Both the position numbers and the translations under genes were made by a program. A stretch of 41,141 bases of DNA. Origin: Natrialbaceae archaeon (GTDB lineage Archaea > Halobacteriota > Halobacteria > Halobacteriales > Natrialbaceae). The stretch is taken from positions 1 through 41,141 of the forward strand of contig PUKM01000163.1 in NCBI GenBank assembly GCA_003552325.1, written 5' to 3'. Below are positions 4,464 to 18,232 of this stretch, piece by piece. How positions within the stretch are numbered: the first letter of the stretch is position 1; every line of letters starts with the position of its first letter. The notes beneath the pieces were generated by a model. The model worked only from the letters and a program-made list of their open reading frames with translations. It ran no database searches and was not told where the DNA came from.

Positions 4464-6584
4464 ATGAGCAGCGAGGACTTTCCAACTGACCGACCCGCGG
4501 TGGTGACCTGTGGGTTGCCCTACGCTAATGGCGACTTGCACATCGGACACCTCCGTGGCTATATCAGCGCCGATGCGTTCAACCGAGCACTCAAAACCCT
4601 GGGCCAACAGTCAGCCTACGTCTGTGGGTCGGACATGCACGGCACCCCGGTTGCCGTCAACGCCGAAGCCGAGGGTGTCGACCCGGAGACCTTCGCACTG
4701 CGGTGGCACGACCAGTATCAAGAGACGTTTCCACAGTTCAACGTCGAGTTCGACAACTACGGACACACCCACGACGACACGAACACTGCACTCACCCAGG
4801 ACATCGTCCGCACGCTCGATGAGGAGGGGTACGTCTACGAGGATGCGGTCCTCGTTGCCTACGACCCGACGGCCGACGATTACCTTCCGGATCGCTACGT
4901 CGAGGGGACCTGTCCGTACTGCGGAGCCCACGCCCGTGGTGACGAATGTGATGAGGGCTGTCAACGCCACCTCGAGCCAGGCGAGATCGAGAATCCAACG
5001 AGCGTACGTACCGGCAACCCGGCTGAGTATCGCGAGCGAACCCACAAGTTCTTCCGCGTCTCGGAGTTCGCCGACTTTTTGACTGACTTCCTCGACGGCC
5101 TCGAGGGAACCTCGAACGCACGCAACCAGCCTCGTCAGTGGATCGAAGAGGGCCTGCAAGATTGGTGTCTCACCCGAGACATGGATTGGGGGATCGACTA
5201 CCCTGGTTCCGAGGACGAAGACATCGTCCTGTACGTCTGGGTCGACGCCCCGATCGAGTACATCGCCTCGACGAAACAGTACACCGAACGCGTCGGTGCC
5301 GAGGCGTACGACTGGGCGGAGGTCTGGCAACACGATGCGGGCGGCGAAATCGTCCACATCATCGGCCGGGATATCATCCAACATCACACCATTTTTTGGC
5401 CGGCCATGCTCGAGGCCGCCGACTACAACACCCCACGTGGAGTCGCCGCGACCGGCTTCATCACCATCGATGGCAAGGGCCTTTCGACCAGTCGTAACCG
5501 GGCGATTTGGGCCAAAGAGTACCTCGAGGAGGGATTCCACCCAGACTTGCTGCGGTACTATTTGACGACGACAGGTGGCCTTCAGCAGGACGTCGACTTC
5601 ACCTGGACGGCATTTCAGGAGAAAGTCAACGGGGAGTTAGTGGGGACGATCGGAAACTTCTGGTACCGATCGCTGCTCTTTGCCTACCGCAACTACGAGG
5701 GGACCCCTGACGTCGCGGTCTCCTCGGACGTCGAGGAACGAATCGAGGGCGCTATCGGCGCGGTTCGTGCGGGTGTCAACGACTACTCCCTCCGTGACGT
5801 TGGCCTGGCTGCCACACGCCTCGCGCAGTTCGGAAACGAGTACATCCAGCAACACGAACCGTGGAAGCTCACCGACGAAGACCCCGAGCAGGCCGCACAG
5901 GTGATCCGAGACTGTGTCCAGATTGCCAAGGCAGTAGGCGTCTTACTCGAGCCAATTGCTCCCGATAAGGCCCAGGCCCTGTGGGAGCAAATCGGGGAAA
6001 CGGGCTCCGTCGCGGATGCCCACCTCGAGGATGCACTCGAGGCCCCGCCGCGGACGTTCGACGAACCTGGTGAAATCTTCGAGAAGATCGAGGACGACCG
6101 CGTCGAGGAACTCGAGGAGACACTCGAGGAGAAGATCGCAGCCGCAAGTGAGGACGACGAGGATGAGGGTGCGTCCGAGAGCGAAGCGGAAACCGAAACC
6201 GACGACACCGCCGACGACGAAGCCCCACGCATGGACGACGACACCGAACTCGAGCCACTCGCAACCGATCGAATCAGTTTCGATGACTTCCAGGACCTCG
6301 ACATTCGCGTCGGCGAAATCGTCGTCGCCGAAGGCATCGACGGGGCGGACGACCTCGCCCGACTCGAGGTGGATATCGGCCTCGAAACCCGACAGGTCGT
6401 CGCCGGGATCAAACGGCTGCACGACCTCGAGTCATTGCCCGGCACGAGGTGTATCCTGCTCGCGAACATGGAACCGGCCGAATTGTTTGGCGTCGAGTCG
6501 AACGGAATGGTCCTCGCTGCTGGTGAGGCGGCGGATCTGTTGACCACCCACGGTGACGCCGGTCTCGGAGAAAAAGTCCGGTAG
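4464..6584 (+). CDS. metG: methionyl-tRNA synthetase with C-terminal tRNA-binding (EMAP/OB) domain
   Basis: PYANGDLHIGHLRGYISADAF (HIGH), CPYCG..CDEGC zinc site, GKGLSTSRNRAIW (KMSKS-equivalent), C-terminal DLDIRVGEIVVAEGI... Confidence 0.97.
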   Translation: MSSEDFPTDRPAVVTCGLPYANGDLHIGHLRGYISADAFNRALKTLGQQSAYVCGSDMHGTPVAVNAEAEGVDPETFALRWHDQYQETFPQFNVEFDNYGHTHDDTNTALTQDIVRTLDEEGYVYEDAVLVAYDPTADDYLPDRYVEGTCPYCGAHARGDECDEGCQRHLEPGEIENPTSVRTGNPAEYRERTHKFFRVSEFADFLTDFLDGLEGTSNARNQPRQWIEEGLQDWCLTRDMDWGIDYPGSEDEDIVLYVWVDAPIEYIASTKQYTERVGAEAYDWAEVWQHDAGGEIVHIIGRDIIQHHTIFWPAMLEAADYNTPRGVAATGFITIDGKGLSTSRNRAIWAKEYLEEGFHPDLLRYYLTTTGGLQQDVDFTWTAFQEKVNGELVGTIGNFWYRSLLFAYRNYEGTPDVAVSSDVEERIEGAIGAVRAGVNDYSLRDVGLAATRLAQFGNEYIQQHEPWKLTDEDPEQAAQVIRDCVQIAKAVGVLLEPIAPDKAQALWEQIGETGSVADAHLEDALEAPPRTFDEPGEIFEKIEDDRVEELEETLEEKIAAASEDDEDEGASESEAETETDDTADDEAPRMDDDTELEPLATDRISFDDFQDLDIRVGEIVVAEGIDGADDLARLEVDIGLETRQVVAGIKRLHDLESLPGTRCILLANMEPAELFGVESNGMVLAAGEAADLLTTHGDAGLGEKVR

Positions 6585-6687
6585 TCGAGCGGGTTGTTTT
6601 TCCGTCGTCACGTTATTCGCCAGGAGACAGTGCATACGCAAGGCCAACGAACACAGGGCCAACTGCTGTTTGTTTTGCAGATACCAG

Positions 6688-7821
6688 ATGGGCGACCACA
6701 ATCACGACCAGATGTCTCGGCGCGGGGCCGACTCGGGACCGCAACGTCGGGGAGACGCGCCGGACCAACGAGGAGACTCGAGGCGGCTACTCCCCGATGG
6801 CGGAACCGCGGCGGAGACTGCGTCATCGGAAACGGAAGAATTGGACGACGAGAGTGACGCCGATGACTCGGATGAAGAGAGTGTCGGAGACGATGAGGAC
6901 GCTGGTGACGCCGAAGAGTCGGGTCAACAGGGCGATAGTGAGGACAGTGAGGGGGAAGAAAGCGAGAGTGAGGAGGTAGAGAGCGAGAGTGAGGGGGCAG
7001 AGAGCGAGGACGAAGGAAGCGATGAAGGCGAAGAAAGCGACGAGAGTGAGGGTGATGACCCGAGTACAGCGGGCGAGGAAAGCACCGACGAAGACTCCGA
7101 GGAGCCTGAGACGGATGACGCTGCGGCGGAGGGCGAAAGCGAGGAGACAGATCCCGGAGAACAACACGGCAACGGTGCCGACGAAGTCTATGAGAGTGAG
7201 GACACAGCGGGCGTTGCCCACCTCGATCTCGATGGTCTCTTCCTCGATGTGCTTGGCCTCGAGGTCAATTTGAACGAGGTGACGCTCGACGTTTCGGCTC
7301 GCCCTGGGGAGGAGAACCTCCTTGGAAACTTGCTCTCGTCCGTCACCGGGCTCCTGGACGGATTAGGGTCACCACTCGACTCGGTGACGAGTGCACTCTC
7401 GTCGATCCCCGATGGATTCAAACGTGCCGCAAGCGGCCTCCTCGAGGGGCTGAAAAGTCGCCTCTCGAGTGTGGTTCCCAGCTTCGGATCCGAAGGCGAG
7501 GCAGCGGATGAAGAAGAGGAAAGCGAAGACAGCGAGGCGGACGATAGCCAGGGGGGAATCACCGGGTGGTTCCGATCCCTCGGGCAATCTCTCGTCAACG
7601 GGCTTCGTTCGCTGTTCACTCGAGCAATTTCCGCTATTCCGCTCGAGCAGGTCATTGCTTCGGTCGTTCGACGCGTGTTACAGGCCGTGATCGGCCGACT
7701 CGAGTCGGCTGGCGAGCGAGCGGAGGATGCCGTTACGTCGGACGCTGCTGGCGAAGATGAATCGGGCGACGAATCAATGCAACAGGAAGGCGATCAACAG
7801 GAAGCGGAGGCAACAGCATGA
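6688..7821 (+). CDS. hypothetical very acidic Ser/Glu/Asp-rich protein with central LFLDVLGLEVNLNEVTLDVSARPGEENLLGNLLSSVTGLLDGL module
   Basis: Long ORF with haloarchaeal codon usage; start taken at MGDHNHDQ after metG; ATGA coupling to next gene. Confidence 0.7.
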   Translation: MGDHNHDQMSRRGADSGPQRRGDAPDQRGDSRRLLPDGGTAAETASSETEELDDESDADDSDEESVGDDEDAGDAEESGQQGDSEDSEGEESESEEVESESEGAESEDEGSDEGEESDESEGDDPSTAGEESTDEDSEEPETDDAAAEGESEETDPGEQHGNGADEVYESEDTAGVAHLDLDGLFLDVLGLEVNLNEVTLDVSARPGEENLLGNLLSSVTGLLDGLGSPLDSVTSALSSIPDGFKRAASGLLEGLKSRLSSVVPSFGSEGEAADEEEESEDSEADDSQGGITGWFRSLGQSLVNGLRSLFTRAISAIPLEQVIASVVRRVLQAVIGRLESAGERAEDAVTSDAAGEDESGDESMQQEGDQQEAEATA

Positions 7822-8285
7822 GTGATCAGGCACTTTCAGTGACGGAGGGATTGGACTATGACCAGATTGTTGACGACATCGACCTCGAGTCGGTGCTCGA
7901 GGGAACCTCCTACGAGGGGGCTGTCGACGGTGACGAACCCATCGGCAGCGAACTCGGTGGGCTACTCGGTGCGATGATCGGCAAAACCCTTGGCGAGCAA
8001 ATCGGTGCCGCCGTCGGTGATGCCATCGTGGACTCGGTGCTCGAGGACGACGAAGCGGATGCAGACGACGAGGACGAAGCGTCGGAAGCGGATGAGGAAT
8101 CGTCGGACGAAGCGGATGGAGATGGCGAAGATGAGGATGGTGACGAGCAGTCTGGAGAGAGTCACGATGAAGAACCCGGAGATGACTCGGATGAGGATGA
8201 TGAGCCCTCGGACACTAATGCGGACGAGGGTTCCGAAGAATCGACCGACGCAGACGATGACTCGAGTGATGACGACGACTCGTGA
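7818..8285 (+). CDS. hypothetical acidic protein with Gly-rich amphipathic helix (GSELGGLLGAMIGKTLGEQIGAAVGDAI)
   Basis: ATGA overlap with upstream CDS; Asp/Glu-rich tail; N-terminus DIDLESVLEGTSYEGAVDG resembles neighbours. Confidence 0.7.
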   Translation: MSDQALSVTEGLDYDQIVDDIDLESVLEGTSYEGAVDGDEPIGSELGGLLGAMIGKTLGEQIGAAVGDAIVDSVLEDDEADADDEDEASEADEESSDEADGDGEDEDGDEQSGESHDEEPGDDSDEDDEPSDTNADEGSEESTDADDDSSDDDDS

Positions 8286-8359
8286 CTCGCCGTTCCAGTG
8301 GTCCTGGGCCACGGAACGGGGGAGACTGAACAGCCGACGCGAGCGGGGGCTGTGGCCGC

Positions 8360-9139
8360 ATGAGTGACGCAACCTCCTTGCAGGACATCGTCGTCGACGA
8401 AGCACTCGAGGCAGTCGACGTCGAGACACTGATCAACGGTGGCTCACTCCGTGAGGAAATCGATGGCCGCGAAGTCGGCGCTGCCGTCGGGCGTCGGGTA
8501 GGCGAACAGGTCGGTCGGCGGACGGGAACACGGATCGGAGCGGCAATCCAGGAGGGACTCTCCCGGAGTCGCGAAGAGGGACACTCACTCGAGGAGCTGC
8601 TGGCTGAACTCGTTCGTTCGGTTCGAACGGCAGTGGCGAATATCCTCGAGGAAATTGGACAGCAGGGACTGGCAGAACGAATCGCCCCTGGATCAGCGAC
8701 ATCGGAGGAGCAGGAAGATGACGAGTCTGCGGAAGACATTGAGGCGGATGCGGAGTCCGAGAGTGATGATGGTAACGGGCACGTGGATGACGATTCCGTT
8801 ACTGATGACGAGAGCGAAACCGATGACGACGAGGGTGACACCACTGATAGGGACACGGACTCTGACTCGGAGACCGAAATCGACATCGAGGAACTGGCCG
8901 AGGGTGAGGAGCCGCCGGACACAGCGGACCTCGCTGCACTCCGGCGTGAGGCCATCGATGCTGTTCTCGAGCAGTGTTCGTACCGCGACCTGCAATCGAT
9001 CGCCAAATCGGTCGGTGTGAAGGCCAACCTCGAGGCCGGAGAAATGCGTGATCGGATTGCGACGACTGTCGTTGACACTGACCAATCATCAACAAATGAC
9101 GGCCAGGGTGAGGTGGAACCTGAGGCCGAAGCCGATTAG
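8360..9139 (+). CDS. hypothetical acidic protein, paralogous Gly-rich helix (GREVGAAVGRRVGEQVGRRTGTRIGAAI)
   Basis: N-terminal VDVETLINGGSLREEIDG + Gly-repeat helix as in the previous ORF, acidic central tract, C-terminal SAP/Rho-N-like LEQCSYRDLQSIAKSVGVKANLEAGEMRDRI. Confidence 0.7.
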   Translation: MSDATSLQDIVVDEALEAVDVETLINGGSLREEIDGREVGAAVGRRVGEQVGRRTGTRIGAAIQEGLSRSREEGHSLEELLAELVRSVRTAVANILEEIGQQGLAERIAPGSATSEEQEDDESAEDIEADAESESDDGNGHVDDDSVTDDESETDDDEGDTTDRDTDSDSETEIDIEELAEGEEPPDTADLAALRREAIDAVLEQCSYRDLQSIAKSVGVKANLEAGEMRDRIATTVVDTDQSSTNDGQGEVEPEAEAD

Positions 9140-9144
9140 ATCCA

Positions 9145-10137
9145 ATGACCACTCAGCCATCCCCCGACGACCGTGTGAAGGAGTTGTTAACCGATGCGGA
9201 AGTGGCGATCGAATCGATCCTCGAGTCTGAAGCCGTCGATGTCGACCCCGAAGCAGACGGGTCGAACGTAACGGAACACATTGCGGACGAGCTCGATTCA
9301 TCTTCCTCTCCGACGGAACTCCTCGAGTCGACAGCACTTCCGGAACTGGCCACCCAGAGCGCAACCTACCTCGAGGATCGCGACCTCTCGACAGTCCTCG
9401 AGGAGACTGGATTCGAGTCAGTGAGTTCGGATTCGTCAGTTCCAGCAGCCATCGCAAACGGCAGCCCGGTTGCGGTAACCACGCTCCGTGCACTCCAGGA
9501 ACTGGCGGCCCTCGAGGAGGACACTGAAGCGGAGGGAAGTGGAACCGACCGAACGGACGAATCCGCCCTCTCAGAGCGCCTCACAAATTTGACAGCACTG
9601 CTCGAGCGTCGGATACAGCTACTCGAGGGGGAGTCTGAGGGTGACCCATCATCGACTGCTGATACGGAGACAGAGACTGAGCAAACGGCGCCTGAATCCA
9701 GTGACAACGACGAACTGTCAGACGAGACCGATGCACGATCGGACTCCGAGGAGGCCGAACGCGATGACGGCGATACATCCCCACTCGAGGCACTGGTGGA
9801 TGGGTTCAGTGACGACGTAGATGCGCTTTCGAACGCCGTGGAGGCAATCGGGTCTGGCGCTGATGAGGTGATAGAAACCGCCGCAGACGACGCCGATGAG
9901 ACGACTGAAGGCGACACGAGCGATGACATGACCGCAGACGACGCCGATGAGACGACCGAAAGCGACACGAGTCATGAGACTGATGAAGCGTTCTTCGGTG
10001 ACGGCGATGGCACACTGCTCGGTGGCAATGACAATGAGGCGAAAGGAACGATGTTCTCGACGGTTCCATCGAGACCCACGGATCGCGGAGATATGGGTGG
10101 GGTGGCTCGACTCTCGACGGTACCGAAGCGAAACTAA
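9145..10137 (+). CDS. hypothetical acidic protein with tandem repeat
   Basis: 5-nt gap from upstream CDS; DRDLSTVLEETGFESVSSD segment resembles 7818 ORF; acidic low-complexity region. Confidence 0.7.
   Translation: MTTQPSPDDRVKELLTDAEVAIESILESEAVDVDPEADGSNVTEHIADELDSSSSPTELLESTALPELATQSATYLEDRDLSTVLEETGFESVSSDSSVPAAIANGSPVAVTTLRALQELAALEEDTEAEGSGTDRTDESALSERLTNLTALLERRIQLLEGESEGDPSSTADTETETEQTAPESSDNDELSDETDARSDSEEAERDDGDTSPLEALVDGFSDDVDALSNAVEAIGSGADEVIETAADDADETTEGDTSDDMTADDADETTESDTSHETDEAFFGDGDGTLLGGNDNEAKGTMFSTVPSRPTDRGDMGGVARLSTVPKRN
9883..9984 (+). repeat. two near-identical copies of a 51-bp in-frame unit (GCAGACGACGCCGATGAGACGACyGAArGCGACACGAG...)
   Basis: Direct reading: unit starts at 9883 and 9934, encoding ADDADETTExDTS; second copy diverges at its end. 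Confidence 0.85.
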
Positions 10138-10188: not shown

Positions 10189-10374
10189 ATGAGCGTCACC
10201 GGCCTGTGTCAGATCTGTTCGACCCGTACCGCCGAGCGTCGGTGTGATTCCTGTGGAGCGCTCGCCTGTCTGCACGATTATGAGGAGAGTGCGGGGGTCT
10301 GTGTCCAGTGTACCGGGACCCGCCGGTTCACTGATTCGACACCTGACCAGTCAGATACCAACCGATTTCCATGA
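10189..10374 (+). CDS. small zinc-ribbon/HIT-like zinc finger protein
   Basis: CQIC-x7-CDSC-x4-CLHDY-x6-CVQC Cys/His pattern; ATGA overlap with next ORF. Confidence 0.75.
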   Translation: MSVTGLCQICSTRTAERRCDSCGALACLHDYEESAGVCVQCTGTRRFTDSTPDQSDTNRFP

Positions 10375-10661
10375 CCTCGATTCGCGATCTCGTCGGGGAG
10401 ACGCTCGATATCGGGGCAGAATATTGTCTCGAACTCGAGCAAGCCGACCAGGGACGACTGCTCGCGCGACATCCAAACCCGCGCAGCCCGATGGACATCG
10501 AGGTTTGTCGCGACCTCGAGCGCCTCGAGAACGTGCCACCGAAAGAACCGGTAACCGTCCGTATTTGTGGAGAGATGTGTGGTGACCGGTTAGTGGGCAA
10601 AGTGATCGAACCGGCCTGTGACGACCCGGCGAACACGGGTCGGCCGTCTACCGATTCCTGA
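10371..10661 (+). CDS. hypothetical 96-aa protein
   Basis: ATGA coupling to zinc-finger gene; MTSIRDLVGETLDIGAEYCLELEQADQGRLLARHP... Confidence 0.65.
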   Translation: MTSIRDLVGETLDIGAEYCLELEQADQGRLLARHPNPRSPMDIEVCRDLERLENVPPKEPVTVRICGEMCGDRLVGKVIEPACDDPANTGRPSTDS

Positions 10662-10737: not shown

Positions 10738-11904
10738 TCACTCGTTTACCGGCGTCAGTGTCTGAAACGCTATCGGTGGAAACCGCGGCTCGATCGTGCT
10801 CGGTCGTCTGCCGCTCCCGCCGACCTCGAGGGGCACCCGAGTCAGGACATCCTTATCGGCGAGTTCGTACAAAAATCGCTTGACCGTCCCGGCAGTCAGT
10901 GCCGACCGTTCGGCAATCGCCGCTGCCAGTTCACGAATCGGCTGTTGACACGTCTTTATCCCGGCGGACTCGAGCGCGAGGAGCGTACAGAGCACTTGTT
11001 GGCGAGTCTCTGGCAGGCTCAACGTCCGATCGAGATGAATACACTCGTCCGGTACATCGGCCTTCCCTCGCTCGAGGTGTGTCGATTTCAGTGCTGGCTG
11101 ATCCTCTTGGCTTGCCAGTGTCGCGGCAGTAAACAGTGCCGTCAGTGCGTTGTGGGCGTTGCCATCGGCCCACTCAGCAACCTCACGCACGTGATGGTGT
11201 TCGATCGCCCCGGTAGCTAATCCACTCGAGACACGCTCGGTGAGGATGTCGGTTAGCTCGTGACGACGGTATGGGGGTACCTCGATGATGGTGTCCTCCC
11301 ACGTGGGTGGTGGCGATTGTCCGACCGGGACGACCGTGGTATGTTGGGCAACGGGATCGAGGAGTTCCTGGACGCGGTCCGCCGTGATCGTCTCCGGTTC
11401 GTCGTGATGGTCGATAGCGATGACGGCACGCCGGTTGTGTGGCTCGAGGTGGCTCACCAGACGATCACGAAGCTCTTCGGTCCCAACGCCACCCGTCGGT
11501 ACGGAATCGGCCGTCATGATCGAGAGGACGGTTCGATAGAACGCGAACGCACTCGAGACTCGCCGGGCGTCGACGTAGATGAACCAGGTGGTGGGCTCGC
11601 CACTGCCTGCACGCGTGGTCGTGCCGATCGTCCCAGTGGTTTCGCCTAACGTCGTGGTCAAGCTCCGAAACAGGGCGGTGATAACGGCAGACGTCCCGGA
11701 CCCAGGAGGGCCGACGACGGCGAACGACTCCGGGAATCCGCGGCCAAACGTGGGTTCGACGGCATCCAGCAACTGCTCGAGGACGGACCCACGCCCGACC
11801 GGCTCTTCTCGGTGCACGGTCGGACTCAGGACATCCCGATCGAGGATGATTCCGGTCTGTCCCCGGGCGGCTTGTCTTCTGGCGATACGCTCCTGCAGAT
11901 TCAT
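10738..11904 (-). CDS. Orc1/Cdc6-like AAA+ protein with degenerate nucleotide-binding motifs
   Basis: VGRGSVLEQLLDAVEPTFGRGFPESFAVVGPPGSGTSAVITALF..., ARRVSSAFAFYRTVL, AVIAIDHHDEPETI, C-terminal winged-helix-like region; ATG abuts glpC stop. Confidence 0.75.
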   Translation of the reverse strand: MNLQERIARRQAARGQTGIILDRDVLSPTVHREEPVGRGSVLEQLLDAVEPTFGRGFPESFAVVGPPGSGTSAVITALFRSLTTTLGETTGTIGTTTRAGSGEPTTWFIYVDARRVSSAFAFYRTVLSIMTADSVPTGGVGTEELRDRLVSHLEPHNRRAVIAIDHHDEPETITADRVQELLDPVAQHTTVVPVGQSPPPTWEDTIIEVPPYRRHELTDILTERVSSGLATGAIEHHHVREVAEWADGNAHNALTALFTAATLASQEDQPALKSTHLERGKADVPDECIHLDRTLSLPETRQQVLCTLLALESAGIKTCQQPIRELAAAIAERSALTAGTVKRFLYELADKDVLTRVPLEVGGSGRRPSTIEPRFPPIAFQTLTPVNE

Positions 11905-13299
11905 TTACGCTGGCCCCGTTCCCGATGAGCTTTGTGTCTCACCACCGTCGAGCAGAGCATCGGCGAGGATTTCCAGTGGGTGCAGGATATCGTAGCCCGT
12001 GCCATGTTCCATCTGCATCGAACAGGTTGGACACTCAGTGAGTCCGTGGGTGGCATCGGCGGCCTCCATGTGTTCGAACATCTCCTCACCGATTTTCATG
12101 GAGGTATCGTAGTTCTCCGCTTTCCATCCGTAGGTTCCGGAGATACCAGAACACGAATCACCTACGTCGTGGGCTTCGACGCCATCGATCGCCGACAGGA
12201 CCTCGATTGCCTGGCCGTCAAGTCCCTGGTTTCTGGCGTGACACGGGGCGTGGTAGGCGAGGTTTGGCAGGTCGGTGGTCGTTCCCTCGAGTTCGCCTTT
12301 CAGGTCTTCGTGGACCCGGAGGTATTCCAGCCCTTCCCAGGTGTTATTCGAGACCTCGTGGACGCCGTCGATATCGAACAGCTCGGGGTACTCCTGTCGG
12401 AGCGACATCGAACAGGAGGTACAGGAAGCGATGACGTCCGCACCCTCCTCGATGGCGGCTGCCAGTTCCGGGACGTTGGTCTTCGCCGCCCGTTCGGCAT
12501 CCCCAAGCATTCCGTTGGCGTACATTGGCGTTCCCGAACACCGTTGATCGGGAACCATCACCTCGTAACCGAAGTGTTCGTACACCCGGACGAGGGCCTT
12601 GCCGACCTCTGGGGTATTGTAATTCGAGTAACAACCGTGGAAGTACGCGATCCGTTTGTCAGTCTCGGCCGTCGTCTTCTCCCCCCGCGCTTCTCTCGCC
12701 GCTCGAGCACGCTCTCTCGAGGTGGCATACCCCCCACGAGCATCCCACCACTCACGGAACGTTTCCGTCGCGAATGCCGGGAACTCGCGTTCGCTGGTGA
12801 TCTTGAGGACCTTCTCGTTGAACACGCGGGTTACGCCGAGTCCCATCATGAAATTCGTCAATCGGGGCACTTTGCTTCCGAGGTGTGCCATCGTTCGATA
12901 GTTCGAAAGCAGTCGGTTTCGCCAGTACTCGAGTGAGCGCTTGCTCATCTGTTTCTCGACGTACTCCCCGCGTGCGGTGTTGTGCATCTGCGAGAGTGGA
13001 ACCTCCGATGGGCAGGCGTGATCACACCGCATACAGTTCGAACATTTCATCACCGAATCGTCGATGTCGTGATCGTCCTGTCGTTTGAGTCGCCACTGTT
13101 CTGGCCCCTGGAACTTCGGCCCGGGGAACTCGTCGTCGACTTCGGCGACGGGACAGTTTGTGTCACATGTAGAACACTTGTAACAGTTGTCCGCGCCCGG
13201 TCTGAGATCCATCTCCGTCGATTCGGGGAACACCTCGATTGGTTCGAAGTCGTCATCAGTCGGTACGTGCTCGTCTGTTGGTTGGGCTGCATCACTCAT
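11905..13299 (-). CDS. glpC: anaerobic glycerol-3-phosphate dehydrogenase subunit C (Fe-S)
   Basis: CYKCSTCDTNCPV and CSNCMRCDHACPSEVP 4Fe-4S motifs, CCG-type C-terminal domains; operon with glpA/glpB. Confidence 0.93.
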   Translation of the reverse strand: MSDAAQPTDEHVPTDDDFEPIEVFPESTEMDLRPGADNCYKCSTCDTNCPVAEVDDEFPGPKFQGPEQWRLKRQDDHDIDDSVMKCSNCMRCDHACPSEVPLSQMHNTARGEYVEKQMSKRSLEYWRNRLLSNYRTMAHLGSKVPRLTNFMMGLGVTRVFNEKVLKITSEREFPAFATETFREWWDARGGYATSRERARAAREARGEKTTAETDKRIAYFHGCYSNYNTPEVGKALVRVYEHFGYEVMVPDQRCSGTPMYANGMLGDAERAAKTNVPELAAAIEEGADVIASCTSCSMSLRQEYPELFDIDGVHEVSNNTWEGLEYLRVHEDLKGELEGTTTDLPNLAYHAPCHARNQGLDGQAIEVLSAIDGVEAHDVGDSCSGISGTYGWKAENYDTSMKIGEEMFEHMEAADATHGLTECPTCSMQMEHGTGYDILHPLEILADALLDGGETQSSSGTGPA

Positions 13300-13336
13300 C
13301 GAATCACCTTTGGTGGTCGTGTTCGTCCGTGGTTGC

Positions 13337-14623
13337 TCATCCGCTCACCTCTGCGCCCGCGCGGTCACCGGCGACGTAGCCGGTCGACAGCGAGACGCCA
13401 CTGCCCGATTTCTCGGCCGCAAAGTCGTATCCGGAAAGCACTGCCCCAGCAGCACGGAGGTTCTCGAATTCGAGGTCGCCGTTGGCGTCCTGTGGCCGTA
13501 GCTCGTTGTCGACCTCGAGGCCATAGCTGGCAAAGGGATGGTCGCCGAAGGCGTCGTCGACGAACCACTCGTATCGGTCCTCCGCGTGGGCGACGTGACA
13601 GTCGAAAATCGGCTCGAAGACGTGGGTTCGGTCCGAGTCAACGCCCTTGCCAACGAGCCCGCCCGTCGCCAAGACGTACTCACTCGCTGCGTAGGGCACC
13701 TGTTGGCCCTTCCGGTCGACGAGGACGTGCTCGATCCGATCTCCGTCACCTGCTTGGTAGTCCACGACGGGGACCCCAGTCGTTACGTTGACGCCCGCCT
13801 CCTCGAGTGCGTGGTAAAGCTGGTCCTCGAGTCGCATGCCGGGGAGACTCGGTGGCCCAGCCGGCACCTCGAAGACGGCAACACCGAGTCGCTCCTCGAG
13901 GTCGCGACGAACGACGTCGTGATTGTCGTCCCCGAGTATCGGCGGGAAGCCGACTCGGGTCTCACCCTCGAGTGCGTCGGAAACGCCTGCAGCGAGTGCC
14001 GCTCGTGCGCCGGTCTCACCGCGTCCGATGTCGACGGCTTCGTCCCAGTCGAGCAGATGGGCGTACCGCGTCACCTTCGCGTCGGCGCGTTTGATTCCCG
14101 GAAACTGGAGCGTTACTCCGCGTGTCTCGAACGGGACGCCTGCTGCCTCGAGATGCTTCGCTGCGAGTGGTCCGTCAAATTCTGGCAGGGTTTCGAACCC
14201 GACAAACAGGGTGTCGGCGGGATCAGCGGCAAGGCCCGGGGCGGTCCCGACAGGGTAACGGGCGGTCGGTTTGACTGTCCCATTGCTGGTCGGGACCAGC
14301 GCGTTCGAATCCGTGTGTGCACCGCCGTAGGTGTCTCCCGTGAGGGCATCGAAAAACAACAGCGCGTCACGAACAGCGTCGGTCCCGACGCGCTCGTATG
14401 GATGGCCCGTCGGCAACGCATCGATAGCGTCGAACGGATCAGCCAGTGGTCCCTCGCCTTCTGGTGTGTAGCCTAAGACGTCGATCAACCCCGTTGCGTG
14501 TCTGAGCGTGCTTTGTTTGTACGTTACTAATCGAACATCGCCACCGTGCTCGGCCGCTGACAGTGCGGCAACCGTTCCGGCGAGGCCGCCACCGATCACG
14601 AGCACGTCGTCAGTGATGGCCAT
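13337..14623 (-). CDS. glpB: anaerobic glycerol-3-phosphate dehydrogenase subunit B
   Basis: VLVIGGGLAGTVAALSAAEHGG FAD motif; GlpB-type sequence between glpA and glpC; SD GGAGGTGA upstream; start abuts glpA stop. Confidence 0.93.
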   Translation of the reverse strand: MAITDDVLVIGGGLAGTVAALSAAEHGGDVRLVTYKQSTLRHATGLIDVLGYTPEGEGPLADPFDAIDALPTGHPYERVGTDAVRDALLFFDALTGDTYGGAHTDSNALVPTSNGTVKPTARYPVGTAPGLAADPADTLFVGFETLPEFDGPLAAKHLEAAGVPFETRGVTLQFPGIKRADAKVTRYAHLLDWDEAVDIGRGETGARAALAAGVSDALEGETRVGFPPILGDDNHDVVRRDLEERLGVAVFEVPAGPPSLPGMRLEDQLYHALEEAGVNVTTGVPVVDYQAGDGDRIEHVLVDRKGQQVPYAASEYVLATGGLVGKGVDSDRTHVFEPIFDCHVAHAEDRYEWFVDDAFGDHPFASYGLEVDNELRPQDANGDLEFENLRAAGAVLSGYDFAAEKSGSGVSLSTGYVAGDRAGAEVSG

Positions 14624-16366
14624 TCACTGGTCACCTCCTCGATTCCGTGGCCCGCCGTCAGTGGCGACGACGCCGGACGGACCCGCCTCCGTATCAGTTT
14701 GCCCGCCGTCGAACGCCTCGAAATTCACATCCGTGCCCGTGCGTGCGGGGTCACCATCGGCGTTGTAGGTTGTCGCGTGGAGCGCGTACTTCAACATGGC
14801 CTGTGAGAGTTGCTCTCCCCAGAGTGCGTGGCGTTCACCCTTCCACCGCTCCTGGAAGAGTTCGTCGTACGCTGCACGTGCAGTCTCTTCGTCGTACTCC
14901 GGATGCAGTTCGTTGGCCAGCAGCTGACAGCAGAAGCCGCCCTGGCAGTTCCCCATCGACGCGCGCGTTCGGATTCGCACGGCGTTCAGATCCGATCCCG
15001 ACTGAGCGATTGCGTCCTGCACTTCCGCGCGTGTCACACTCTCACAGTTGCAAATGACCGGGTTGGGATCGGTCGTTTGCAGGACCTCCCTCGAGCGACT
15101 CCCCAGCCGTTGGGTGCTCCGACGGGCGACGGGTGACCTGAGTCCGAACTCATCCATGGCGTCCTCGAGCGCCTCGAGGTTTTCACTGCCTGGCAACGGC
15201 ACGTCGGCCGTGTCGCAGGACGCGCTGTGGCCGAGTTTGTCACAGATGTGGTCGCTGATCTTTTCTGCCATCAGTCGGGAGGTCGTGAGTTTTCCACCGA
15301 CGATGCTGGTCATGCCGCCGACGCCGTCCCGTTCGGCGTGGTCGAGTAAGAAGAAGTCCCGGGTGATGTCTGTCGGGTCTTCGGTTCCAGTGCCCGGTGG
15401 TTCGTACAGTGGTCGAACACCCCAGAACGAGCGGATCGTCCGTGCCTCTTTGAGGATCGGGACGAGTTCGGCGAGGGTGGCGATCATCAGATCGACTTCC
15501 CACTGTTCTTCTGGATAATCGTCAGGATCCTCGACTTCCTCGTCAGTCGTTCCCAAAATCGCCGTTGTCTCGTGTGGAACGATGATGTCAGCGTCACCTT
15601 TCGGCCGACAGCGGTTGATTACCGTATCGACCTGCCTGACGTTCATAATCGTCATCACGCCTTTCGATGGCCGGACGGCAACCTCGAGGTCAGCCATCGC
15701 GCCGATCTGTCCAGCCCAGGCACCGGTCGCATTGACGACGTAGTCGGCGGTGATGTCTTCGGTCGTTCCCGGTGTTTTGTGCGTTCGTTTGCCGGGCCCG
15801 GAGTCGTGACGGACGGTGACGCCGTAGATGTCATCACCCTCACGGAGCAGGTCGACGACCTCGGCGTGGGTTTCAATCCGTGCACCGTGGCGTTCGGCAT
15901 CGTGTGCATTGGCAACACAGAGTCGGAACGGGTCGACTGCGCCGTCGGGAACCTGAATCGCCCGTTTGACGTCTTTGGCGAGATAGGGTTCAATCCGGCG
16001 CGCCTCTGCCCCGCTCAGCACGCGTGCGGGGATATCGCATTCGCGACACCCGGTCAGTTTTTTCTGGAAGTACTCGTCACTGTCTTCTGGACGCTGGACG
16101 AACAGCCCACCGGTCATCTCGATACAATGACCCGCGATGTCCTGTAGGACGTCGACCTCTTGGATACACTCGCGCGCGCTCGCCTGATCAGACACCGCGT
16201 ATCGACCACCACTGTGGAGGAGTCCGTGCATCCGCCCCGTTGTGCCGTGTGTGAGATTCCCGCGCTCGACGAGTGTGACCTCGAGGCCGCGCATTGCCAG
16301 GTCTCTGGCGATGCCACAGCCGGTCGACCCGCCGCCGAGGACGAGCACCTCCGTATCGGTTGCCAT
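14624..16366 (-). CDS. glpA: anaerobic glycerol-3-phosphate dehydrogenase subunit A (FAD, BFD-like Fe-S domain)
   Basis: [53 protein letters not shown]-terminal [18 protein letters not shown]. Confidence 0.96.
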
Positions 16367-16693
16367 GGGTTAGCTACAGAATGGGTCCCCCTCACCTTTA
16401 TTTTATCGGAGGTCGGGGATCTGCGTTAACAAATGAAGATTCGTGTTTTTCCGTTTTGTGTGGGTGACTGGCACACGTGTTCGGATATTATGACAATACC
16501 CGCAATAAACGGCATTTTGACCGGCTAAAAATCGGGGAAATCGAACTATTACCCCTGTATCTCGGCGATTGAAGTGTATCGAATATTATGGGTTGAGAAA
16601 TGTTTATAACCATTGTATGTATTGTTTACCACCAATGCGCTATCGTCAGTAAACACGGTGGCGTATCCACTCAGTTAACGGGGTGACCACGAT
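16367..16693. promoter_or_regulatory. divergent glpA/glpK intergenic control region, locally AT-rich
   Basis: 327-nt AT-rich gap with TATA-like TTTATAA near 16611 and TTTATTTTAT near 16398, between divergent glp operons. Confidence 0.6.
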
Positions 16694-18232
16694 ATGACAG
16701 ACACATACGTTGGCGCGGTTGATCAGGGAACGACCGGCACACGGTTCATGGTCTTTGACCATGCCGGCCAGGTCGTTGCGAACGCATACGAGAAACACGA
16801 ACAGATCTATCCGGAACCAGGTTGGGTTGAGCACGACCCCATGGAGATCTGGGAAAACACGAAATCAGTCATCACGACTGCACTCGCACAGGCTGGCGTT
16901 GCGCCAGACCAACTCGAGGCAATCGGCGTGACGAACCAGCGAGAAACGACCTTGCTGTGGGACGCCGATTCCGGGAAACCAGTCCACAACGCACTGGTCT
17001 GGCAGGACCGACGGACCACGAGCCGTGTCGAGGAACTCGAGGAAGACGGGCTTGTCGGGACGATTCGGGAGAAAACTGGCCTCGAAGCAGACGCCTACTT
17101 TTCGGCGACGAAAGCCGAGTGGCTGCTCGACAACGCCGACCCGATCAAGATGGAACGGACGCGGCCGGATGACATCCGCGACCGTGCTGGACGGGGGGAA
17201 GTGCTCTTTGGCACTATCGACACCTGGCTGATCTACAATCTGACGGGGAACCACATCACCGAGGTAACCAACGCCTCGCGGACAATGCTCTACAACATCC
17301 ACGACCTCGAGTGGGACGAGGAACTCCTCGAGGAGTTCAACGTCCCCCGTGAGATGCTTCCGGAGGTCCGACCCTCGAGTGACGAGGAGACCTACGGGAC
17401 CACTGATCCCGATGGATTCCTTGAGGCCGAAGTGCCAGTTGCCGGCGCACTCGGTGACCAGCAGGCGGCGCTGTTCGGCCAGACCTGTTTCGATGCCGGC
17501 GAGGCCAAAAACACCTACGGCACCGGTTCGTTCTTCCTGATGAACACCGGAGAGGAAGCCGTCGAATCCGAACACGGCCTGCTCACGACCATCGGATTCC
17601 AGCGCTCGGGCGAACCCGTCCAGTACGCCCTCGAGGGGGCAATCTTCATCACCGGGGCCGCTATCGAGTGGCTCGAGGATATGACGCTTATCGATGATCC
17701 GGCGGAGACGGCGGAGATGGCCCGTAGCGTCGACTCGACTGATGGCGTCTACGTCGTTCCGGCCTTTACCGGGCTTGGAGCACCTCACTGGGACCAGCGC
17801 GCACGCGGAACCATCGTCGGGATGACCCGTGGCACGCGCAAAGAGCACGTCGTCCGCGCAACGCTCGAGTCGATTGCGTACCAGACCCGAGACGTCGCCG
17901 AAGCGATGGAAGCGGATTCGGGCATCGACATGCAGAGTCTCAAGGTTGATGGTGGCGCTGTCAAGAACAACTACCTCTGTCAACTACAGTCCGACATCAT
18001 CGGCTCGGACATCGCCCGACCAGTCGTCGACGAGACGACGGCGCTCGGATCGGCCTACGCAGCCGGCCTCGCTGTCGGCTACTGGGACGACATCGAGGGC
18101 CTCCGCGACAACTGGCAGGTCGACCGGGAGTTCAGTGCAGAAATGGACGAATCGAAAGCCGACAACATGTACGGCCGCTGGAGCGACGCCGTCGAGCGTT
18201 CGCTTGGATGGGCGACTGACGGGGGGGACTAA
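16694..18232 (+). CDS. glpK: glycerol kinase
   Basis: VGAVDQGTTGTRFMVFD, NQRETTLLWD, GDQQAALFGQTCF, GTGSFFLMNTG, KVDGGAVKNNYLCQLQSDI. Confidence 0.97.
   Translation: MTDTYVGAVDQGTTGTRFMVFDHAGQVVANAYEKHEQIYPEPGWVEHDPMEIWENTKSVITTALAQAGVAPDQLEAIGVTNQRETTLLWDADSGKPVHNALVWQDRRTTSRVEELEEDGLVGTIREKTGLEADAYFSATKAEWLLDNADPIKMERTRPDDIRDRAGRGEVLFGTIDTWLIYNLTGNHITEVTNASRTMLYNIHDLEWDEELLEEFNVPREMLPEVRPSSDEETYGTTDPDGFLEAEVPVAGALGDQQAALFGQTCFDAGEAKNTYGTGSFFLMNTGEEAVESEHGLLTTIGFQRSGEPVQYALEGAIFITGAAIEWLEDMTLIDDPAETAEMARSVDSTDGVYVVPAFTGLGAPHWDQRARGTIVGMTRGTRKEHVVRATLESIAYQTRDVAEAMEADSGIDMQSLKVDGGAVKNNYLCQLQSDIIGSDIARPVVDETTALGSAYAAGLAVGYWDDIEGLRDNWQVDREFSAEMDESKADNMYGRWSDAVERSLGWATDGGD

Follow-up and report, generated by a model that had tools for sequence, protein, structure and literature searches.

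The locus and its gene array

This analysis concerns four consecutive genes, here called A to D, and their relation to gas vesicles. They lie in a 41,141-nucleotide stretch of DNA from a Natrialbaceae archaeon (contig PUKM01000163.1 of assembly GCA_003552325.1), the whole of which is referred to as the window. Gas vesicles are gas-holding protein shells that act as buoyancy organelles; they serve as tools for imaging and antigen display, mostly in the form of GvpA together with GvpC, which is the usual vesicle-strengthening protein. The source genome (G000) is a fragmented haloarchaeal assembly of 2.33 Mb in 287 contigs and is 66.6% complete. The four genes are as follows:

6688-7821, + strand: gene A, a 377-residue acidic protein with a long acidic N-terminus, a conserved core and two amphipathic helical regions
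7818-8285, + strand: gene B, 155 residues, with a short domain, a glycine-zipper-like helix and an acidic tail; by profile comparison a paralog of C
8360-9139, + strand: gene C, 259 residues, the paralog of B with an extra SAP/Rho-N-like C-terminal domain
9145-10137, + strand: gene D, 330 residues, a divergent paralog of the gas-vesicle protein GvpI, as judged by hhalign against long-type GvpI

A preliminary description of this DNA, made without database searches, had reported four same-strand open reading frames, with an ATGA joint and a 5-nt gap, that encode extremely acidic proteins rich in Asp, Glu and Ser. Both points were borne out. The coordinates agree, with A and B overlapping by ATGA, B and C separated by 74 nt, and C and D by 5 nt. 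The computed isoelectric point (pI) is 4.05 for each protein, Asp and Glu make up 28-42% of the residues (13-26% in the other window genes sampled), and Ser makes up 8-13%. As had also been noted, no signal peptide is seen in any of the four. Searches of A to D against Pfam, NCBIfam and PDB profiles gave no match above threshold, and no family names them. A literature search limited to open-licence papers found no published report of these genes, which is not proof of novelty.

Distribution and linkage to gas-vesicle genes

Homologs of A are encoded in 38 of 61 genomes compared, including 33 of the 37 from the window's family; the four absences in the family are G001, G010, G012 and G015. In nearly all of the 36 loci compared, the window included, B, C and D come directly after A on its strand. 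The genes are thus real and widely conserved as a unit, in keeping with the operon-like array first proposed. Their flanks vary: the upstream neighbour of A in the window, metG (4464-6584), is found there in the window's genus only, and cobalamin or other genes flank the array elsewhere. A search with a single A core sequence identified named carriers in Natrinema, Natrialba, Natronorubrum, Halopiger, Natronococcus, Halovivax, Halobiforma, Haloterrigena and Natronosalvus, as well as in Halocatena, Haladaptatus, Halogranum, Halohasta and Haloarcula amylovorans. This list is not exhaustive; most of these carriers hold all four genes, in order.

The distribution of A follows that of the gas-vesicle (gvp) genes. 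Among 61 relatives, A and the GvpA/J/M family (PF00741) are both present in 37 and both absent from 21, while two have gvp only and one has A only (Fisher 4e-13, a value which, like those below, ignores shared ancestry); the sole A-only case is a weak A match (E 8e-4). For 295 genomes of the order, A and GvpO occur together in 97, A alone in four, GvpO alone in 26 and neither in 168 (Fisher 1e-47). The association persists outside the window's family, with 44, 3, 23 and 162 genomes in the same four classes (p 1e-26). Within the family, A and GvpO are jointly absent from six genomes of three genera: g1 (G001), g8 (G089 and G184) and g9 (G015, G285 and G288). As for the four genomes that have A without GvpO, G022 holds a gvp remnant only, G043 and G120 have broken copies, and G167 gives a weak match. 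G022 (L060, L075) is a complete genome in which A to D have been kept and the gvp cluster has shrunk to a gvpM-like remnant, and it offers a natural test of whether A to D outlive gas vesicles.

Physical linkage points in the same direction. Of the 44 genomes from other families that carry both genes, 22 have A no more than 15 kb from gvpO; if the genes were placed at random in a genome of 3.5 Mb, the chance of this would be about 6e-34. All or part of the cluster is found within or beside gvp genes at L035, L036, L063, L065 and L066, and among the loci from named species at L101, L107, L120, L121 and L128. Two of these, L035 and L036, are from the window's own genus and have the cluster in the gvp operon location. 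On a Halocatena salina plasmid, A and a B/C-like gene (each a 'hypothetical protein' in the record) are located between gvpH and the GvpI gene. The window's own A to D are not in a gvp operon. The gvp genes of this genome are on other contigs: C6 carries gvpA-N-O, and C1 carries gvpF to gvpM, with gvpF cut by the contig end and gvpH only partly called. In the window's family, A to D mostly lie apart from the main gvp genes.

Taken with the GvpI-like member and the upstream element described below, this distribution and the location in gvp operons make it very probable that A to D belong to the gas-vesicle system. The array had been presented as a self-assembling or surface-coating system outside any known pathway. 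A link to a self-assembling structure is plausible; the gas-vesicle context had been missed, and the exclusion of a known pathway does not stand.

Gene D, a relative of GvpI

Gene D is the member of the array with a recognisable counterpart among the Gvp proteins. Its profile aligns with that of long-type GvpI at 99.3% in hhalign (E 2.3e-20). The N-terminal domain alone gives 97.4% over 123 columns, and the C-terminal tandem ST(V/M)P boxes give 97.1% against the GvpI C-terminus and 82.7% against the short, Halobacterium-type GvpI. The latter feature lies at the end of the gene:

10045-10134, + strand: C-terminal double STVP box of D (GTMFSTVPSRPTDRGDMGGVARLSTVPKRN), common to GvpI

Thus, D resembles haloarchaeal GvpI in having both the long-type N-terminal domain and the C-terminal double STVP/STMP box. 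It differs in stopping after the second STVP box, without the final R(I/L)YG(R/Q)R box of GvpI, and in lying outside the gvpH-gvpJ slot, which in the window's genome is occupied by another, true long GvpI (L068:1270-2112). Given that the last box is absent and that a true GvpI coexists in the genome, D is a paralog of GvpI rather than GvpI itself. The two also differ in charge: D is acidic, whereas the GvpI of Halobacterium is reported to be strongly basic, with a pI of about 10.8 (PMC7688916, PMC9501494).

A short motif had been proposed to be common to three of the proteins. This holds for B and C. The stretch 'DRDLSTVLEETGFESVSSD' in D, taken as the third copy, does not align to the profiles of B (1.25%) or C (0.14%), and is part of the GvpI-type N-terminal domain.

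Genes B and C, a paralogous pair

The profiles of B and C are homologous (hhalign 98%), and they have in common the N-terminal domain, which includes the motif, and the glycine-repeat helix. By this comparison B and C are paralogs, as had been suggested for the middle two genes. Their origin by duplication is supported by single proteins in L063 and L059 that join the start of B to the tail of C. Two features of C can be placed on the sequence:

8465-8578, + strand: glycine-repeat helix of C, with invariant G40, G44, G48, G52 and G56
8921-9097, + strand: C-terminal three-helix domain of C, SAP/Rho-N-like, with AlphaFold confidence (pLDDT) >90 over most of it

AlphaFold predicts a helical hairpin at residues 36-108 of C with a pLDDT of about 75-85, which agrees with the glycine-zipper-like helix of the preliminary description. 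A GxxxG-repeat helix is also found in the glycine-zipper families PF13488, PF13441 and PF05433, but B and C score at best 14.1 bits against these families, whose cut-offs are 24-29, and they are acidic and soluble with no signal peptide seen. For the C-terminal domain of C, SAP domains are among the top Foldseek matches, none of which is significant, and one of 27 C members matches Rho_N (E 0.0075). Kinship between the tail of C and that of a GvpC-like protein in G012 is not claimed: the BLAST match (E 7e-5) is partly low-complexity.

In several gvp-bearing genomes without A, a lone B-like glycine-zipper gene is present beside gvpM or gvpO:

L154:13746-14159, lone B-like gene
L156:2877-3287, lone B-like gene
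L163:2632-3042, lone B-like gene
L155:6756-7436, lone B-like gene
L158:7563-8153, lone B-like gene
L160:10034-10672, lone B-like gene

Given this location, B-type proteins may form a family more widely associated with gas vesicles.

Gene A and its conserved core

Gene A contains a conserved core that went unmentioned in the preliminary description, with the consensus LHLDLDGLFLDLLGLEVNLNxVTLDVSARPGxNNLLGNLLSxVTGLLDG. Many members also have variable KPxxxL repeats. The core and the C-terminal helix lie as follows:

7213-7386, + strand: core motif of A, an alternating hydrophobic stretch followed by the NLLGNLL amphipathic helix, with 16 invariant columns
7642-7728, + strand: conserved C-terminal amphipathic helix of A (PLEQVIASVVRRVLQAVIGRLE), pLDDT 82-84 here in a model that is poor as a whole

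The low-confidence AlphaFold model of A (pLDDT 62) gave no fold matches in the PDB, and a tblastn search of A against plasmids returned nothing at 1e-5. An LLGNLL core like that of A, with 68% identity over 50 residues, is found at the end of proteins of the bacterium Salipaludibacillus (L125:7638-8225 and L126). Unlike A, these proteins have an apparent signal peptide and are apparently secreted; they belong to no named family. No gvp genes lie near them within the 16-kb loci, and the core of A is therefore not in itself specific to gas vesicles.

An upstream element common to A and gvpA

A short element precedes gene A:

6632-6647, + strand: promoter-proximal element GCATACGCAAGGCCAA, 56-41 nt 5' of gene A

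The pattern GCAYNYGCAAGN{0,1}CCAA occurs twice in the window's genome (15-16 nt), once before A and once before gvpA, where the copy lies at C6:23981-23995, 43-57 nt before the gene on the opposite strand. Over 41 genomes, this strict pattern has 17 matches, 14 of them before A and one before gvpA; a reversed-pattern control gives 23 matches, about 0.6 per genome, so that it is the position of the element, and not the count, that matters. The only two strict matches that are tied to neither gene are G010:C175:2222-2237 and G043:C14:141676-141691. A looser form, GC[AG]NN[ACT]GCAAG[GC], is found before A in 32 of 32 loci of the window's family, allowing for miscalled start codons, and in 23 of 29 gvpA upstream regions compared with 4 of 424 control upstream regions. 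When gvp loci were scanned with a position matrix built from the A upstream regions, the one strong match was the genome's own gvpA (19.8 bits; the next scored 14.3). An unbiased measure of 7-mer sharing between A and gvpA upstream regions gave 0.22, which is not above the null (mean 0.21, maximum 0.28). Since the pattern was also drawn post hoc, after inspection of the data, the element is supporting rather than decisive.

Relation to GvpC

Haloarchaeal GvpC, an external shell protein, is like A to D in being present with gvpA and gvpO. The two rarely coincide: among 123 genomes with GvpO, 96 have A only, 10 have GvpC (PF05465) only, one has both and 16 have neither (p 3e-7). The single genome with both, G102, has one marginal PF05465 repeat. 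This near mutual exclusion makes A to D a candidate for the job of GvpC. In the window's genome, gvpN begins 7 nt after gvpA, leaving no gvpC in its slot, and Halo_GVPC repeats (PF05465) have no match in A to D or anywhere in G000. A to D differ from GvpC in lacking its repeats, in lying outside the gvpA-gvpN slot and in being four proteins instead of one.

Within the window's family, G012 is an exception. It has a 416-residue gene in the gvpC slot (L072:11684-12934), with no Pfam match, together with a GvpI that is short and basic like that of Halobacterium (L072:9285-9638). Short GvpI seems to be paired with GvpC (also in L083, L084 and L165), and long GvpI with its absence. Most of the other genomes with neither A nor GvpC that were inspected have full gvp clusters lacking gvpC. 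Possession of A to D or of GvpC is therefore not absolutely needed, and neither coat is universal.

The vac regions of Natrialba, Natrinema and Halopiger have been described as lacking gvpC (PMC4390858; PMC3403918). For these genera and Natronobacterium, the clusters are reported to lack both gvpC and gvpDE and the species to be vesicle-free (Vac-), the cause being unknown (PMC4390858). According to a gvp cluster table in a later review, gvpC is present in Natrialba, Natrinema, Halopiger and others (PMC9501494). That listing conflicts with the two earlier papers and is unsupported by the sequences examined here.

Interpretation

The preferred explanation, to which a probability of about one half may be given, is that A to D form an unlinked accessory gas-vesicle operon, probably for shaping or reinforcing the shell in place of GvpC. 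In Halobacterium, loss of GvpC leads to long, weak vesicles, and loss of GvpI, which binds GvpH, GvpL and GvpF, to extremely long ones (PMC7688916); GvpC and GvpI are also known to interact (PMC9501494). Given these effects on vesicle length and this interaction, a GvpI paralog in a module exclusive with GvpC fits a role in shape control. In such a scheme, A, B and C would act on the vesicle shell in species without GvpC. B and C might oligomerise through their glycine-repeat helices, while A might use its amphipathic core and helices to bind the shell surface or its growing edge. D would link the complex to the machinery of Gvp assembly, coupling it to GvpH and GvpL, just as GvpI docks with GvpH, GvpL and GvpC, and the four proteins would jointly control the shape, length and strength of the vesicle, as GvpC does in Halobacterium. 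The GvpC-like role as such is somewhat less than an even bet. More tentative still is the fuller proposal of a new system, formed by A, B and C, that coats or shapes vesicles independently of GvpC, was recruited together with a paralog of GvpI and usually has its genes away from the gvp cluster.

The kinship of D with GvpI and of B with C, the inheritance with gvp genes, the embedding in gvp operons elsewhere and the element shared with gvpA are all shown by sequence comparison. Several points weigh against a shell role. The co-occurrence statistics leave shared ancestry aside. No similarity to the repeats of GvpC is seen in the sequences of A, B or C, and, since the AlphaFold model of A is poor, shell-surface binding by A is suggested by sequence character alone. 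Some fifteen genomes with gvp genes lack both A and any recognised GvpC. The exclusivity of A and GvpC may mark two lineages of gvp cluster and not the same job. Finally, the named species of the window's family are reported to be Vac- (PMC4390858).

Nearly as likely, though also short of even odds, is an accessory operon that serves the assembly or placement of vesicles and has no GvpC-like shell role. Possible forms are a second nucleation or chaperone complex with GvpH, GvpI and GvpL, or the clustering, partition or tethering of vesicles through the SAP-like domain of C. Such a role would suit a paralog of GvpI, itself part of the accessory complex, as well as the predicted SAP/Rho-N-like domain at the end of C and the position of A and a B/C-like gene among the accessory genes gvpFGHIJKLM in Halocatena and L066, and it fits the co-occurrence data equally well. 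By itself, however, it leaves the mutual exclusion with GvpC unaccounted for, and the element in the window's own genome is shared with the structural gene gvpA, none being near gvpF in the upstream regions inspected. It is rather unlikely that the whole system is a modified one, in which A to D replace GvpC, GvpD and GvpE and the compartments that the GvpA shell makes are small or conditional. This improbable arrangement would explain intact gvp genes in species that look vesicle-free in culture: neither gvpC nor gvpDE is present in the vac regions of Natrialba, Natrinema, Halopiger and Natronobacterium, which are reported to be Vac- (PMC4390858), the first three were found here to carry A to D, and the retention of gvp genes and A to D together across the family is probably under selection. 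The Vac- reports, however, come from laboratory growth and are also explained by conditional expression of ordinary vesicles, and there is no sequence sign of a non-buoyant compartment. An unrelated acidic self-assembling or surface-coating system, linked to gvp by shared ancestry only, is disfavoured as very improbable. In the window's family the cluster does have unrelated neighbours (metG, cobalamin genes and others), and four genomes have A but no GvpO, although one of these is a weak match and two carry broken copies. Against it stand the closeness of A to gvpO in 22 of the 44 genomes from other families, the homology of D with GvpI, the joint absences and the common upstream element.

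Neighbouring genes

Downstream of D there are two small open reading frames and then an Orc1/Cdc6-like gene on the opposite strand. The small frames overlap and show no conservation alongside the cluster across the loci compared; the first has a CxxC...CxxC arrangement:

10189-10374: small open reading frame, small-zinc-finger-like
10371-10661: small open reading frame
10738-11904: Orc1/Cdc6-like ATPase, scoring under the cut-off curated for the family
11905-18232: apparent glycerol-3-phosphate dehydrogenase genes and a glycerol kinase gene, abutting the Orc1/Cdc6-like gene

Significance

It has been left open why haloarchaea with complete-looking, GvpC-less gvp clusters appear vesicle-free (PMC4390858). 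Four further genes have now been found to travel with such clusters, often at a distant site. Because of this distance, work on the cluster alone, whether by heterologous expression or by deletion, may miss parts that are needed. Four unnamed protein families thereby gain a testable function and may provide new shell-modifying parts. If A, B and C do form a coat, this would account for the control of vesicle form in haloarchaea without GvpC, and it might explain the rarity of vesicles in culture.

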